38,176 bases of DNA from an uncultured Gammaproteobacteria bacterium. Its GTDB lineage: Bacteria; Pseudomonadota; Gammaproteobacteria; Magnimaribacterales; Magnimaribacteraceae. The stretch covers positions 1 to 38,176 of the forward strand of contig CAJWPI010000015.1 in assembly GCA_913045055.1 (NCBI GenBank), read 5' to 3'. Both the position numbers and the translations under genes were made by a program. The number at the start of each line of letters is the position of its first letter. Position 1 is the stretch's first letter. Positions 1 to 38,176 of the stretch are shown here, piece by piece. The notes beneath the pieces are model-generated. The model saw only the letters and a program-made list of their open reading frames with translations. It was not told the origin of the DNA and did no database searches.

Positions 1-289
1 ATCTTTATTAGGTTTTCTCAGCTGAATTTCCTGAGATAGATAAAACTGATCAAAACAATTTTTAAAGTCTTCATAAAAACTAACGTTATCTTTTATAAAG
101 TCTATATGCATATCGTTTGTATTACTCAATAATATGAGTTTGTAATCTTGCTCTTTTGCAAGTTGTTGAATAAACTCTAATCTGTACTTTGGGAAATCTT
201 TCAGGATGTAATTCCAGGCTTCAATGATTTGATTTTCGTTTAAATATGAGAATTTAGATACATAAAAATCAATAAATTCTTGATAATCT
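1..289 (-). other. C-terminal half of a HAD-superfamily hydrolase, in frame with the recombinase
   Basis: After about codon 470 the fused frame reads like a YihX-type HAD phosphatase. It has a helix with [20 protein letters not shown], then the motif II region [12 protein letters not shown], then a motif III-like [12 protein letters not shown] at the window edge. The N-terminal motif I (DxDxT, the Asp nucleophile) and most of the cap domain are missing, because the recombinase joins directly before the FIDFYVSKF helix. Motif IV would lie beyond base 1. The segment is AT-rich like the rest of the window, so it is probably native sequence. As it stands it could not be an active phosphatase. Confidence 0.6.
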
Positions 290-1701
290 CCCATAACATC
301 ATCTTCGATCATAGAAATTAAGTGCAAGTACCTCTGCGTAGTAGCCACACTGGAGTGGCCGAGCCTATCCCGCACATATAGCAACGGATCTATAACACTC
401 TTACGCCTGCGCATGTCATGGAGTGTATGCGTCGCATAGGTATGGCGGAGCATATGAGGAGTGACTGTGAAAGGAAGCCCCAGATCTTTCCACATATGGT
501 TTAGACTCTGGCCTTTAGGACTGTAAGGCACACCATACCTAGATAGAAACAACGGAATTGACTCTACACATGAGGTCTGCATACTCCGATTACGCTCATG
601 AATTTTGTACTGCCAGAGCGCGGCCATAAGCGAGCGAGGGATGTCAATCTCCCGCGCCTTATTCCCCTTGAGCTCCATATCCTTTGGACTACAGAAAACT
701 CTAAAGTGAGAACTGCCTTTAGATATTTGAGCGGGATCAAATATATAGGAGCTTGGAAATGTAAGGAGCTCTTCCTTCCTCAACCCACTGCTTAGGGCTA
801 GTCGTGCAATAAGCTTTTGAGTAGAACAACTTATGGAATTTAAAAAAATTGAATTAAAATTGAAATCTTCTAAATTAATATTGTTAAGTCTTCTAAAGCT
901 TCTTTTTCTTGCTAATGCATCTAAAGTTTCTATTTCAGAAAGTCTAGCTGAAATAACATTAGAACATTGGTTCATCTTAATATTATGATTCAAGGCCTTT
1001 ATACTAGGTCTGCTATTTTCAGTAGACAATACTCTATTAAATGTTCTTGAAAGAAAAATAGTAAATGTACCTACACCACAATGTAACTCTAATACATCAT
1101 CTTTTTTATCTATATTTTCAAAAATCCAAGATAGAATTTTTTCACATATATAAGGATTTGGTTGACAAAAACATTGATCAAAGAGACTTATTGAGTATTT
1201 TCTGTCCATATAATTATAAGTTTCGTCAACACAGTCTTTTTCTATAACAATTTTCTGGTTTTTACTTCTTCCTATAATCGAAGTATGAAGGTACTTGTTA
1301 AGTTCAGAAGCCATTTCTATCCAACTTGTATCAAGTCTTTTGTGGTATACCAAAGTAATTAAAGCTTGTGTGTCTCTATTTACCATAAACTCAACTTGAA
1401 AGAGACGATAACTCAAAATTTTATTTTTTCTAATTAAATCAATTAATTTAGTCATTAATGTATTAATTTTTGGATCGCAAATTGACAATTCAGAAATCTT
1501 AATTTTAGAGGAGTCTTGTGTCATATAAAATTCTTCTTGATTATCTAGAACTGTTAGTCCAAGTTCTATTCTCGTTCTAAAACCTTCTTCAGGTGACTGA
1601 TAATAAGAAATATTCTTTGTATGCTCTTGGAAGAATTCTTTAAATTTAAATTTTTTCTTCTTGAACTGTGTTTTATAGACTCTTTTATTTTTGTTATTCA
1701 A
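1..1701 (-). CDS. trmA: Fused ORF: TrmA N-terminal part, tyrosine recombinase domain, HAD hydrolase C-terminal part (incomplete at the window edge)
   Basis: Reading the minus strand codon by codon gives 567 codons with no stop, and the frame is still open at base 1. Codons from 1701 to about 842 match TrmA, the SAM-dependent tRNA uracil-54 C5-methyltransferase. Visible features are the motif FCQPNPY, the SAM-binding motif [11 protein letters not shown], and an ending (FNFNSIFL) that aligns with E. coli TrmA just before DPPRSG. The DPPR motif, the catalytic Cys region and the C-terminal Glu base are not present in normal form. The frame continues into a tyrosine recombinase (about 841-290) and a HAD-type hydrolase (about 289-1). 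The start is probably TTG at 1701, overlapping the metH stop by 8 bases, because the next in-frame ATG is about 60 codons in and would remove conserved TrmA sequence. A TrmA made from this frame should be inactive. The frame may be real or a chimera. Confidence 0.75.
290..841 (-). mobile_element. Tyrosine recombinase (phage/ICE-type integrase) catalytic domain, lacking its N-terminal DNA-binding domain
   Basis: This middle section of the fused frame carries the catalytic set of the tyrosine recombinase family in the right order. There is a first Arg in SSGLRKEEL, a Lys in the beta-hairpin region [12 protein letters not shown], HxxR in [10 protein letters not shown], a His in [11 protein letters not shown], and the Tyr nucleophile in TQRYLHL. 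The family's N-terminal SAM-like core-binding domain is absent; TrmA sequence stands in its place. Codons such as GCG, CGC, CGG and CTC are common here and rare in the neighbours, so the piece looks acquired from another replicon. It resembles integrases of phages and integrative elements more than XerC/XerD. No attachment-site repeats or other element genes are visible in the window. Confidence 0.8.
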
Positions 1702-4700
1702 TATTAGAGCTCAAAAATTTCTTTGTTATTGATATCTTCTCTTTTCTAGTCTTAGCTACTCTTTTAACCTGATCATTTCCAATCTTGCCAACTCCAAAAT
1801 AAGTACTTTCAGGGTGTGAGAAATACCAACCACTTACAGAGGCAGCAGGACTCATTGCAAAATTTTCTGTTAAAGATACTTTTATTTTTTTATCTGCATC
1901 TAATAGTTGAAACAACTTTAATTTTTCAGAATGATCTGGACAGGCAGGATATCCAGGAGCAGGTCTTATACCTAAATATTTTTCTTTAATTAGGTCTTCA
2001 TTAGTATAGTGTTCATTTTTTGCGTAACCCCAGAGATCTTTTCGAACTTTTTCATGCATATATTCAGCAGATGCTTCAGCCAATCTATCTGCTAAAGCTT
2101 TTAGCATAATGGAAGAATAGTCATCATTATTTTTTTCATACCTCTTACAAGCTTCTTCTACCCCAATGCCTGCCGTAACGGCAAAACCACCGATTACATC
2201 TTTTCTATTTTCTTCTTTAGGAATAATAAAATCTGCTAAGCATCTATTCGGTCTTTTCAAGCCTTGTTCTTTTTGTTGTCTTAAAAAGTTTAAGGTAGTC
2301 AAAACCTTTTTTTTACTTTTAGTATCGTATATCTCAATGTCATTGTTATTAATTTGATTACATGCCCAAAAACCAACAACTGCTTTAACTTCAATTATCT
2401 TCTTTTCATCAATATTTTCTAGCATATCTTTTGCATCTTTAAATAAATTTTTTGCTGCATCTCCTACTTTAGGATCAGACAAAATATCAGGGTATTTACC
2501 AGCTAAATCCCAAGATCTAAAGAATGGAGCCCAGTCAATATAATTTCTTAATATCTTTATAGGAATATTGGATAAAGTTTTTGTACCATAAAAAGTAGGT
2601 TGGGTGGAATTGTAATTTTTCCAATCTATCTTTTGTTTATTCTTATTTGCAGCCTTAATGTCTAATAAAGGTTTTGTTTTACCTTTTAATAATCTTTCTC
2701 TAACCTTTTCGTATTCAGCTTTTATTTCTATTAAAAACTCCTTTTTATTTTTTTTATTAACTAAGTTCTGAACCACACCAACGCTCCTAGATGCATCAAT
2801 GACATGAACAACAGGACCTGATTTGTATCCAGGCTCAATTTTAAGTGCAGTATGGGCTTTTGAAGTTGTGGCACCTCCTATTAGTATTGGAATACTTAAC
2901 TCTCTTTTTGTCATTTCTTGGGCTACATGAACCATTTCATCTAGAGATGGGGTTATAAGTCCACTAAGACCTATGAAATCAGCCTTTTCTTTAATTGCAG
3001 TTTGAATTATCTTCTCTGCAGGAACCATCACTCCCAGATCAATTACTTCAAAGTTATTACATTGTAAGATTACACCAACTATATTTTTTCCTATATCGTG
3101 TACATCACCTTTCACTGTAGCTAAGACTATCTTTCCATTTGATTTTAGTTTTCCAGTTTTTTCTTTTTCTATAAAAGGGACTAGATACGATACTGCTTCT
3201 TTCATAACTCTCGCACTCTTGACTACTTGAGGAAGAAACATTTTTCCTTCTCCAAACAAATCTCCTACTATGTTCATCCCATCCATCAAAGGTCCCTCAA
3301 TGACCTCTATAGGACTATCCTTAAGTAATCTTTCTACTTCGACATCTTCTATTATGAATTTATTTATTCCATGGACTAGAGCATGAGAAATCTTTTCACT
3401 ATTTTTTAATTCACGCCAAGCTATAGTTTCTTTTTGTTCTTCTTTCTTCTTACTCAAACCTTTAGAAGCTTCTATTAGTTTTTCTGTAGCGTCTTTATTT
3501 CTATTAAGAATTACATCTTCAATTATGTCTCTTAATTTAGGATCAATATCTTCATAAACTGAAAGTTGGCCTGCATTTACAATGCCCATAGTTAATCCGT
3601 TCTTAATTGCATGGTAAAGAAATACTGAGTGCATGGCTTCTCTTATTAGGTCATTACCTCTAAAAGAGAAAGACACATTACTAATCCCACCTGATGTTCT
3701 TATATTTGGATAGTTTTTCTTTATGTATTTGCATGCATCTATGAAGTCTTTTGCATAGTTCAGATGCTCATCAAGACCGGTGGCTACAGCAAAGACATTG
3801 GGATCAAAGATAATATCCTCTTCTGGGAAATTTACTTCTTTGACTAATATATCGTAGCTTCTTTTACAAATTTTACATCTATCTTCGTAAGTAGAAGCCT
3901 GACCCTTTTCATCAAATGCCATAACAACTACTGCAGCTCCATATGTTTTGCATAATAAAGCTTGTTTTATAAACTCTTCTTTGCCTTCTTTTAAACTTAT
4001 AGAATTAACTACACTTTTTCCTTGTATATTTTTTAAACCCTCTTCCAATACTTCCCATTTCGATGAATCTATCATTATCGGAACTTTACAGATTTCAGGT
4101 TCAGTAGAAATAAGCTTTAAGAAATGCACCATTTCCTCTTTTGAATCAAGTAATCCTTCATCCATATTAATATCAATAATTTGGGCTCCTGATTCAACTT
4201 GATCCTTTGCAATTTCGAGAGCTTCATCATATTTTTTTTCTTTAATTAATCTAGAAAATTTCTTTGATCCCGTTACATTAGTTCTTTCTCCTATGTTAAT
4301 GAACAGTGAATCATTACCTATAGATAGATGCTCAAGTCCGCTTAAAAGAGTTACTTTATTATTTTTTTTAATTTTTCTTTGATTCAAAGCTGAAACTTCT
4401 TCTTTTATAGCCTCAATATGGCTAGGTGTGGTTCCACAACACCCGCCAACTAAGTTAACTAATCCTTCTTCAGCAATTTCTCTTATTATCGAAGACATAT
4501 ATTCAGGAGATTCATCATAACCTCCCATTTCATTAGGTAGTCCTGCATTAGGATGAAGACTTATAGGTTTATCTGAAATATTATCTAGAGAGTGCAGGTG
4601 TGGTTTAAGATGTTCAGCACCTAAAGCACAGTTAAAGCCTACAGCATCAGCATCGCTATGTTTTATAGCTGTCCAGAAGCCTTCAACAGTTTGACCTGAA

Positions 4701-5347
4701 AGAGTTCGTCCTGATGCATCAGTTATAGTTCCTGAAATTATTAGAGGAATTTTTAATTTTAAATCTTGGCATTTTTCTAAATAAGCATATATTCCAGCTT
4801 TTACATTTAATGTATCAAAAACCGTTTCAAACATGAGTAGATCACTACCACCATCTATTAATCCATCAATACTTTCCCTGTAACTTTTAACAAGTTCACT
4901 GAAATAGATATTTCTTTGAGAAGGGTCGTTTACATCAGGCGATAATGATGCAGTTTTATTAGTAGGACCAATAGCGCCAATTACATAAGCCTTTTTTTTG
5001 GTATCTTTAATAGCCTCCTTGGCTATCTTGGCTCCTTGAAAGTTAAGTTCATAAGCTTTTTTCTGTAAAGAATAATCTGCTTGAGAGATCGAATTCGAAT
5101 TAAAAGTATTTGTTTCTATAAAATCACTTCCAGCAAGAAGAAACTTTTTATGAATATTTTTTATAAGTTCAGGTTGAGTTATGTTTAGGAGGTCATTATT
5201 TCCTTTTAATTCGTGATCAAAATTTTTGAATTTTTTACCTCTAAAATCATCCTCTAAAAGATTTTCGTCTTGAATCATAGTACCCATGGCACCATCAAGA
5301 AACATAATCCTAGTTGATAATAGTTTTTGAAGTTGTTTTTTTAACAT
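1694..5347 (-). CDS. metH: Cobalamin-dependent methionine synthase MetH
   Basis: Transfers a methyl group from 5-methyltetrahydrofolate to homocysteine through enzyme-bound cobalamin. At 1217 residues it is close to the E. coli protein (1227). The domains follow the standard order. The homocysteine-binding domain has its zinc Cys ligands in GFNCALG and [10 protein letters not shown]. Next come the pterin-binding domain ([14 protein letters not shown]), the cap, the B12-binding domain with the DxHxxG His ligand ([13 protein letters not shown]), and the C-terminal activation domain with [12 protein letters not shown]. The enzyme is complete, so the cell needs cobalamin from synthesis or uptake. 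The 220-bp gap upstream, shared with divergent nfuA, shows no cobalamin riboswitch B12 box that I can recognise. The trmA-like frame overlaps the 3' end by 8 bases, which suggests co-transcription. Confidence 0.98.
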
Positions 5348-33875: not shown

Positions 33876-36800
33876 TTAGTAAGCCCATATATAAAGATAT
33901 TCATAAGAACTTCCACAAGAAAGAGTAAATAGGTTCCATCCAGGTGTAGAAATGGTCACAGACTCACTTCCTGATGAATTTTTGTTTCCAGACCATGTAC
34001 CTCCTGCTGTACATGATTGAGCTGAAGAATTCCAGGAAAGTGTAATAGATGTTCCAACAGCGACATTTTCACTTGTTGCATAAAAAGGATCATTATTAAG
34101 AGGTGAAGATGAAGTTGAAGTACTACTTGAAGTAGATGATGTATCAGAAGAACTTGTGGTAGTTGAAGCACTAGAAGTTGATGAAGTATTGGTTGATTCA
34201 TTTATTCCTGTTTCATTGACTAAATCTTCTATTGTAATAACGGAATCACCACCCATCCCTGAGTGAATTTCACAATAATAAAATAATTGATCAGGGGCAT
34301 CATCTGCTACAACAAGCTTCAAAAAAGAACCTTCCTCCCCGGTATTGCCTACTTTAGTTATGCCATCTAAGTATTCCTGCCCTCCTCCATGTGTTCCATC
34401 TTTTATGGAAGATAATCGAAACGGATGGTTTCTCAGAGTATCTGTATTTGCTGGAGTAGCTCCCGATAGATCAAAGTAGTAGGTATTACCCCTCTTTAGT
34501 GTTAAATCTCTAGATGTTTGATAGTTAAGAGCAAATTTATTAGAGCCATTAACCTGCTTAACTTCCACTAACAAAGCATGATTCTTTGAGTTATGTCCCC
34601 GATAATTTCCATCAGGAATATTTGTTGGAATGGCATATCCTCTATTATTTAAGAGGTTGTATAATTTGCTATCAACGGAACTAAACTCATCTCTACCACA
34701 GATTCTCCATTCATCTTGAACGTTCTCACAATGCCCAGCTATTTGTAAGGCGCTCATGTTCGACATTAATCCCCAATAAACGTATTCAACTGCCTGACAC
34801 CGATAATCACAACCACTGTCATAATAGCCGTACCAAGCGTTACTAGGGTAAGCAGATGGTACATCTTTAAATCTTCCACCTCTTGCTGAATCCATGGCTT
34901 CAGTTAATTCACTTGGATCATCATAGCTTGTACCAAAAGCATCTGGATAAACATCAGCCCATCCATCGGTTACTATATGCCAAATTTCCTCTAAGTTACC
35001 ATCCCAATTATCTTGAGCCTGGTTATCACGAGCATTCTCTAGACCTCCTAAGGTCCAAGAATCTCCATAAACAATCTCACCAGTAGATGAAAGAGTATCC
35101 ACATACATAGAAGCATTCATATTAAAATAATCCTGGCAAGAATCACTCCAAAAAGACTCTCTAGTGATCTCGGTCCAGACTGGAGCAACCTTACCTTTAT
35201 CAAGTAAGTTATTTAAAACCTGTTGATCATCAGGAATACCATCTTCATCATTATCTAGATAAGATGCTAATACCTTTGCAGAATGCATCATTTTTGAAAT
35301 AGGAACCTCTTCAGGCGATATAACATATACTCCGAAAACATTTATGAACTTAGAGAAAAAATCTGATGCACATGCATATTCTGGGTGTTCATCTAAAATT
35401 TCAAAAGTAGGTATAGAATAAGAATTAGTTTCATTCGAACTAGAAGAATTAGATCCGGATAAATCCTCAGTACTAGAAGAGCCTGGAGAAGAACTTGATC
35501 CAGAAATTGAAGCAGTGATTGTAAATTCTGTATCTGAGTTTTCTTGAATACTAAAAGAGGAACTGCTGGTAAAAGAAATAGCAGAGGATCCAGAGTTTGA
35601 AGTAGGTAGAGAAGAAGAACTAGAAGAAGATCCTGATGACATACCTAAATCATAGCCTGAGCCTGAATCATAGCCTGAACTCTGACCAGTAATACTCCCA
35701 CTGCTCGAAGAACCTGAGATCATTCCATAACCAAAATCTCCAAAATCTCCTAAACCACCCATAAAGCCACCCATATTGTCCATATCCGAATTTGACGAAG
35801 ACTCATCTTCATCATTTACAGTTATAGAGATGTTTTGAGAGTTACTTATATTTCCTGTACTTGCAGTAACAATAATTTCATAAACATTATCTTGGTCTGA
35901 ATCTAAAGGGTTTTCATAATCAGGAGAAGATTTAAAAGTAATCTCACCAGAAGATGGGTCTATGTTAAATAAGTCAGCATCTACACCAGATAAAGAAAAT
36001 CCTAAAGGATCATCAGTACTAATTCCTGAATCACTATCAGATGATGAAGAACCTGATGCTGAGCCTGACGAAGATCCAGTAGAGCCTGTCTCTGCATTAA
36101 AAGAAACTACAGCCTCTTGAGAGAACAATTGTCTTAACAAGGATTCACTTGGTGGTACTAAAATTTTCGCTACGTAGTCAAGATACAATTGGTGAGCTAA
36201 GGGAAGTTTATTTTCGAGGTCAGTTGACCCAGTAATTTTCCACTCTTCATTTGGTACAGTCATATTTATGACATCAAAGTAATCCCATTCAGACATTATT
36301 ACCCAGTAAATAAATTCTTGAGCTTCTACTCTCTTTCTGGAATCAATAGGTTCAATTTCTGCATAACTTGAAATATCGTAATGACCCATTTCTACAGCTT
36401 GGTCTTTAGCTAGCTCTAATTGGGAAGTAGGACAAACTCCATCACTATGCCAATCCCATGGAGAACAGTCGTCTTCTCCTTCTTTGAAAGCTCTATGAAA
36501 GCCCATGGTGGTTACCGTATGAAGAAGGTGTTCCATGACCTCGTTAAATTGTCCTGATGCATTTTCATTCTCTTGCTGCCATATGTAGTCAGCTGCATGA
36601 TGTTCGTAATCATCAGTTTCATCGGGTTGACTTGGTGTAGGATGACCAGGAGGTTCTCCCCCATAGTTATCAGGACCTCCCTTCCCTACCCTCTGAAAAA
36701 TATATTGATTTTGTAGAGTATTTATATACTGATCTCTTAAAGATGAATCTATTAGGGGTCCATCACCAAACATAGCTGCATATGCACTCGCAACATTTTC

Positions 36801-38176
36801 TAAGAAGGTACCTGATACATCATCTAATCCAAATATTCGCAATCCATAAGAATCAATGTATCTATTAAAAGGATCGTATGAACTATCACTAGTTAAATCA
36901 CCTACCTGGTAAAGACTTGAAGTACTAGAAGAAGATGATGAACTACCAGAAGCACCTTCTGGTTGTATGTCTAAAAAATAAGATAGATCACTCGCTTGAG
37001 GGGCCCAATCATCAGGTATATCCGCTTCTGGATCACCTGTACGCATATAAGAATTGAAGTCATCATAGAACTCCTGTTTGCTCATGCCAACATGCTTCTC
37101 AAAAGCACCCCAAAACCCCAGCTGATAATAATCTTGAGGGATGTCTACCCAAATAGTCTTATACGAAGTTCGATATGCAAGAAATGCTGCGGCCCATACA
37201 CTTATTCGTTGCCCACATTCTGACTCTGTTTCGTACCTCTCTTCCAACTCGGTAAAGTTCCAGTTTGGATCGCATACTTCGGTACTTCCTGAGGTAACTT
37301 TTCTTCCAGGTGCACCTTGTATTGACCGTCTTATCTCTTTATAAGACTCAGACCTAGTTACACTCGCTATATCTATACCTCTTATTTGACCTAGGGTTGC
37401 GTCATCAAATAATGAAATTTTGTCCCAATTAGCTTGAAACCAAGCGTTTTGAAAAGCGATAGCGGCGCCTTCTATCCACCAGGTAGGAGCTTCGACTGTG
37501 GTTTCTGGGTTATTTCTATCGTATTGGTAATCAAACCCTCTTTCTAAAGCATGAGCTCTTTGATAACTATGAAAGTATTCGTGGGCCTGATTAAGAGCAA
37601 TACGTATATATCCTTCAACTTCTGAACCCCCACTACCAAATGGATTTTCTCGGAATTCTAAACTTTGTAAACAGACATTGTATGGGTCTGTTGTAGCGGT
37701 TCTACTTCGTCCTGCATTAGCTCCTGCAAGACAACTTTGGGAGTCTATTAACTCTTGGAAAGTTAATCTATTGTTAGCGCTATTGTTATAATTAATTTCT
37801 TGAAGTCTATCTATAACAGGTGCAGCATCTGCTTCAGTACCATTTGTATTAAAAACTAAGTAGACAAATCTTGGGTAACTGCCTAAAACAGCATTAAGCT
37901 GATCTTGGATCTTAAAGAAGTTTTCTCGGTGAATATCCGGTACATCTAGTCCTGCTACGTATTCTTGTGTGTTACTTGTTGATGGAACATTAAAATTTAT
38001 ACTCAACAATTTATCTTTAGCCTCTTGAGCAGTAAAACTGGTAGCACTTGGATAAAGTTCTCCAGAAATAGAAGATTCTGAACTGGAAGAAGCACTTGAA
38101 GAAGACTCGGAACTAGAAGAAGATTCTGAACTGGAAGAAGCACTTGAAGAAGACTCGGAACTAGAAGAAGATTCTG
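33876..38176 (-). CDS. Giant exported multidomain protein: metallopeptidase-like, cadherin-like, cupredoxin and Ig-like domains (N-terminus outside the window)
   Basis: The frame is open to the right edge (about 1432 codons visible), so the start lies outside; the TTG at 38007-38009 is not a credible start. In protein order there is a Ser/Glu-rich repeat, then a metallopeptidase-like domain with HEYFH (codons 37583-37569) and a likely third ligand Glu in WWIEGAA (37472-37470). An unrecognised domain around EVMEHLLHTV follows, then a cadherin-like segment (about 36010-35820, with DADLFNIDPSSGEITF). After a Gly/Ser-rich linker comes a second copy of the unrecognised domain (LEEIWHIVTDGW), then a cupredoxin domain with His in NHPFRL and Cys, His and Met in YYCEIHSGM. 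A Ser/Thr linker leads to an Ig-like end (SCTAGGTWSGNK). Probably secreted or surface-bound. The function is unknown. Confidence 0.85.
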   Translation of the reverse strand, partial: ESSSSSESSSSASSSSESSSSSESSSSASSSSESSISGELYPSATSFTAQEAKDKLLSINFNVPSTSNTQEYVAGLDVPDIHRENFFKIQDQLNAVLGSYPRFVYLVFNTNGTEADAAPVIDRLQEINYNNSANNRLTFQELIDSQSCLAGANAGRSRTATTDPYNVCLQSLEFRENPFGSGGSEVEGYIRIALNQAHEYFHSYQRAHALERGFDYQYDRNNPETTVEAPTWWIEGAAIAFQNAWFQANWDKISLFDDATLGQIRGIDIASVTRSESYKEIRRSIQGAPGRKVTSGSTEVCDPNWNFTELEERYETESECGQRISVWAAAFLAYRTSYKTIWVDIPQDYYQLGFWGAFEKHVGMSKQEFYDDFNSYMRTGDPEADIPDDWAPQASDLSYFLDIQPEGASGSSSSSSSTSSLYQVGDLTSDSSYDPFNRYIDSYGLRIFGLDDVSGTFLENVASAYAAMFGDGPLIDSSLRDQYINTLQNQYIFQRVGKGGPDNYGGEPPGHPTPSQPDETDDYEHHAADYIWQQENENASGQFNEVMEHLLHTVTTMGFHRAFKEGEDDCSPWDWHSDGVCPTSQLELAKDQAVEMGHYDISSYAEIEPIDSRKRVEAQEFIYWVIMSEWDYFDVINMTVPNEEWKITGSTDLENKLPLAHQLYLDYVAKILVPPSESLLRQLFSQEAVVSFNAETGSTGSSSGSASGSSSSDSDSGISTDDPLGFSLSGVDADLFNIDPSSGEITFKSSPDYENPLDSDQDNVYEIIVTASTGNISNSQNISITVNDEDESSSNSDMDNMGGFMGGLGDFGDFGYGMISGSSSSGSITGQSSGYDSGSGYDLGMSSGSSSSSSSLPTSNSGSSAISFTSSSSFSIQENSDTEFTITASISGSSSSPGSSSTEDLSGSNSSSSNETNSYSIPTFEILDEHPEYACASDFFSKFINVFGVYVISPEEVPISKMMHSAKVLASYLDNDEDGIPDDQQVLNNLLDKGKVAPVWTEITRESFWSDSCQDYFNMNASMYVDTLSSTGEIVYGDSWTLGGLENARDNQAQDNWDGNLEEIWHIVTDGWADVYPDAFGTSYDDPSELTEAMDSARGGRFKDVPSAYPSNAWYGYYDSGCDYRCQAVEYVYWGLMSNMSALQIAGHCENVQDEWRICGRDEFSSVDSKLYNLLNNRGYAIPTNIPDGNYRGHNSKNHALLVEVKQVNGSNKFALNYQTSRDLTLKRGNTYYFDLSGATPANTDTLRNHPFRLSSIKDGTHGGGQEYLDGITKVGNTGEEGSFLKLVVADDAPDQLFYYCEIHSGMGGDSVITIEDLVNETGINESTNTSSTSSASTTTSSSDTSSTSSSTSTSSSPLNNDPFYATSENVAVGTSITLSWNSSAQSCTAGGTWSGNKNSSGSESVTISTPGWNLFTLSCGSSYEYLYIWAY
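38071..38176. repeat. 48-bp tandem repeat, 2.2 copies, running off the window
   Basis: The units at 38071-38118 and 38119-38166 are identical, and a third begins at 38167. Each encodes 16 residues on the minus strand, nearly all Ser with spaced Glu and one Ala, in the N-terminal part of the giant protein. The copy number is unknown because the array continues past the edge. Confidence 0.95.

Follow-up and report, generated by a model that had tools for sequence, protein, structure and literature searches.

Does the long open frame at the start of this contig encode a genuine three-domain protein, or were its parts joined by some other route? The window, 38,176 bp, is the whole of contig C15 (bases 1-38176) in an assembly of 56 contigs and 1.49 Mb, and the frame therefore sits at a contig terminus. 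On the minus strand of positions 1-1701, 567 codons run without a stop and stay open to the first base, which is the contig end, passing from a TrmA part through a tyrosine recombinase part into a HAD part. The original prediction described just such an uninterrupted frame, and this description stands: Pfam recognizes PF05958 and PF00589 in the translation, and the HAD part is recognized through the Winogradskyella gene that it matches, whose full product matches HAD_2. The joins that it placed near 841 and 289 are close to the ones we located, at 841-850 and 267-281. GC content changes in a sharp step, from about 22-31% on both flanks to 41-52% in the recombinase piece. In GC profiles of 43 contig ends, which are blind to foreign AT-rich tails, a narrow high-GC block of comparable kind appears only at the start of C15. 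At the opposite end of the contig, a serine-repeat-rich frame of more than 1,400 residues (33876-38174, minus strand) runs off the terminus and looks like a large secreted or surface protein.

TrmA is a tRNA (uracil-5-)-methyltransferase of family PF05958, and the window holds the front of its gene. Positions 841-1701 on the minus strand encode the first 287 codons, in which residues 9-288 align to positions 2-290 of the 357-position profile (E 5.9e-69, Pfam). As the original prediction noted, the gene breaks off immediately ahead of the conserved DPPR motif, so that the window protein lacks both this motif and the catalytic C-terminal part. Directly upstream is metH, the gene for methionine synthase (1694-5347, minus strand), placed as in relatives, and the order of metH, nfuA and further neighbors is common to the window and its relatives. 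Only the sequence from 841 onward belongs to the host.

The relatives show what the rest of this gene should look like. A TrmA match is present in 32 of 60 related genomes (25 from the same family and 7 from the same order), and in same-family relatives intact open frames of 354-390 codons match the host TrmA at 43-51% identity. Across all 32, the open frames span 336-390 codons, the match to the window protein ends at the first join or just beyond it, and no fusion was found. The 19 relatives that we inspected end as normal TrmA proteins, showing the DPPR/DPPK motif as well as a stretch that reads DQFP(Y/F)T. The original prediction had reasoned that close relatives with intact trmA and HAD genes and no recombinase between them would speak against it, and for trmA this is what the relatives have.

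The middle piece (267-850, minus strand) comes from the interior of a tyrosine recombinase gene. Its DNA matches one plasmid record, Pseudomonas aeruginosa p2017-45-137A (CP109686.1, 147206-147789), at 99.7% identity (582/584). The only two mismatches fall at 834 and 286, leaving 547 consecutive identical bases from 287 to 833. The match both starts and ends inside the gene for a 379-residue tyrosine recombinase, a protein with an N-terminal SAM-like DNA-binding domain and a complete catalytic domain (Pfam). In the window protein, PF00589 (Phage_integrase) is present at residues 294-461 (E 5e-11, Pfam), from profile position 23-24 onward only. The rest of the 8.5-kb stretch that surrounds the match in CP109686.1 is absent from the window's genome, and no second copy of the piece was found elsewhere in it. 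Phages and E. coli genomes hold no match to the recombinase DNA, the recombinase query found nothing in viral contigs, and 369 genomes of the class yielded only a chance 39-base match besides the host itself. The plasmid comes from a sink-drain isolate, and near-identity to it suggests contamination or DNA from another sample.

The terminal piece (1-281, minus strand) has a different source. It is an internal fragment of a HAD-family hydrolase gene, 98% identical (275/281) to a Winogradskyella (Bacteroidota) metagenome genome, PBLD01000003.1. Positions 59-281 are identical over 223 bases in a row, and all six mismatches lie within the last 58 bases. Here too the match begins and ends inside a gene, in this case for a 203-residue HAD protein. 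The donor protein begins MIDTLIFDFGD, and the window piece starts well after the nucleophile motif FDFGD, which agrees with the earlier observation that the nucleophile half is missing. The piece itself has no Pfam match, and every one of the 53 genome records that match its DNA bears a Bacteroidota name. The remainder of the 6.3-kb stretch around the match in PBLD01000003.1 is absent from the window's genome, a second copy of the piece was not found elsewhere in the host genome, and the HAD query was not found in viral contigs.

Each join falls on a short sequence that the two neighboring pieces share. The recombinase and HAD pieces have exactly 15 bases in common at 267-281 (minus strand AAGAATTTATTGATT); no other 15-mer occurs in both the plasmid and the Winogradskyella gene, and the codon phase is the same in the two. 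At the other join, 841-850, trmA and the plasmid gene probably share about 10 bases (minus strand AATTTTTTTA), again in matching codon phase (I-F-L). The plasmid match begins at 850. All 19 inspected relatives read F-L/V-D-P-P at this point, and the window reads F-L-N-S, like the plasmid, where the host TrmA should read F-L-D-P-P; hence our estimate of about 10 bases, an indirect one because the host sequence after 841 is in neither of the two contigs that carry trmA. In random joins between the same genes, at least 15 shared bases at the second junction arose in about 3 of 100,000 trials, and at least 10 at the first in about 1 of 100,000. Neither junction sequence was found in 2.9 million viral contigs. 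The frame stays open because both donors read in the same codon phase at each join. The original prediction held that two same-strand, in-frame joins would rarely occur by chance, but this is a weak argument: we estimate about 1 in 36 for random joins within coding DNA, and each shared stretch simply happens to be in the same phase in both of its donors.

The true continuation of trmA lies on another contig. A profile built from the C-terminal parts of relatives' TrmA proteins gave a single match in the same assembly, on contig C24 about 600 bases from the contig end (G000:C24:24787-24948, minus strand). This trmA piece begins near KEFNQIIYISCGF, and its C-terminus reads EFNQIIYISCGF...VLRKL followed by the stop codon. 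The original prediction had advised looking for an intact trmA elsewhere in the genome; what C24 holds is the C-terminal end, and about 17 codons, DPPR included, are missing between C15 and C24. Beside the trmA end on C24 are two genes that, on our reading of their sequence, are acyl-CoA dehydrogenase-like, and then etfA and etfB. In four relatives examined, etfA and etfB directly follow trmA, and the gene order around the C24 piece is close to theirs. The two acyl-CoA dehydrogenase-like genes (G000:C24, L085:4480-6779) lie between trmA and etfA, which abut in those four relatives.

On its other side, the trmA piece of C24 also runs into sequence of another kind. The last 600 bases of the contig (L085:6943-7542) hold the C-terminal 199 residues and stop codon of a receptor-like protein, joined directly to the trmA tail. 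This open frame has only weak matches in relatives (23-45% identical), no close relative among 369 sampled genomes of the class, no second occurrence in the assembly and no Pfam match, and a search for its source found none. Since C15 and C24 each carry part of trmA with an unrelated tail, trmA was cut at one place and unrelated tails are attached to both cut ends. The end of C24 is probably a second chimeric contig end, and an ordinary, intact trmA is almost certainly present in the organism.

We therefore hold with high confidence that the 567-codon frame is a chimeric contig end made of DNA from three unrelated bacteria, and that it represents neither a fused gene nor a new enzyme nor the scar of an integration. 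Its segments match different organisms with near-identical DNA, it lies at a contig terminus with the true continuation of trmA elsewhere in the assembly, and it is joined at short shared sequences, of 15 bases by direct observation at one junction and about 10 by estimate at the other. The joining step was amplification, library preparation or assembly. True host sequence ends inside trmA at about 841-850, and the integrase fragment (850-267) and then the HAD fragment (281-1) come after it. Most likely, template switching at microhomology produced the joins at the bench, in whole-genome amplification (MDA) or library PCR, and the assembler then extended the contig end with the resulting chimeric reads. 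That the joining was physical and not purely computational, and that MDA was used, are the presumptive steps of this scheme.

A computational origin is the alternative for that physical step, and it leaves the verdict of an artefact untouched. The assembler could have misjoined the three sequences where they are alike, with no chimeric DNA molecule involved, as the contig-end location and the shared sequence at both joins would allow. The lengths of the shared stretches make this unlikely. The ends of contigs C10 and C24, and likewise those of C2 and C17, share an overlap of exactly 55 bases, which suggests de Bruijn assembly at k=55, and the smallest k-mer in such assemblers is usually 21. 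Stretches of 10-15 bases are shorter than either, so reads spanning the joins probably existed before assembly; because the joins need such reads, chimeric molecules formed by template switching are the better explanation. We favor a physical chimera over a pure assembly misjoin; library PCR and a computational misjoin are possible alternatives to MDA.

Biological explanations fare much worse. Along with a chimera, the original prediction offered a real fusion and a scar of element integration, and of these three options only the chimera survived, upheld by the three DNA sources, the contig terminus and the rest of trmA near the end of C24. In favor of a scar left by a mobile element whose target was trmA and whose integrase was the recombinase, one could point to a recombinase lying right at the break in trmA, and to the unrelated sequence joined to the C24 part as well. 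An integrated element, however, would have a whole integrase and defined ends. What is present here is an inner section of a plasmid's integrase gene, taken from its middle and lacking the N-terminus; the inside of a Bacteroidota gene comes next after it, and none of the remaining 8.5-kb plasmid stretch, and so none of its plasmid neighbors, is present. We consider such a scar highly improbable. That plasmid and Bacteroidota DNA had very recently been inserted for real into the trmA of this cell, giving a translated fusion, seems to us an extremely remote prospect. As for a real, expressed three-domain enzyme, including the TrmA-recombinase fusion that the original prediction listed as one possibility, the frame is indeed open throughout; but its TrmA would work without DPPR and the catalytic C-terminal part, its HAD part without the N-terminal half, the other two fragments are near-identical to DNA of two other organisms, no relative carries the fusion, and the viral contigs hold neither junction. 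This makes such an enzyme vanishingly unlikely.

An annotator who took the 567-codon open frame at face value would record a novel fusion protein. No such protein should be deduced from the frame: it is an ordinary artefact that requires no new biology, and its value is as a warning only. The genome record of 56 contigs has at least one, and probably two, chimeric contig ends, which should be trimmed, and its trmA is to be treated as intact.

Set against known proteins, each part of the frame is a familiar sequence cut short. Residues 1-287 correspond to a normal host TrmA front (PF05958), but DPPR and the remainder are missing from the window, and the C-terminal end lies near the end of C24. 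The recombinase piece shares 99.7% of its DNA, over 584 bases, with the gene for WIK43689.1 of p2017-45-137A, of which the window has about half, the N-terminal SAM-like domain being absent. The HAD piece is 98% identical over 281 bases to the HAD-family hydrolase gene of Winogradskyella sp. SP247 (PBLD01000003.1), but only the middle of that gene is present, and both ends and the N-terminal nucleophile region are lost. The closest parallel to the joins themselves is found in the chimeras made by MDA, in which priming takes place at a match of up to 21 complementary bases (PMC1855051). In most of those an inverted join links parts of a single molecule, and different molecules are joined more rarely (PMC1855051), a point against the scheme proposed here, in which three organisms are combined and the use of MDA is presumed. 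What the two have in common is that segments are joined at a short shared sequence, of up to 21 bases in the MDA chimeras and of 15 and about 10 bases here.
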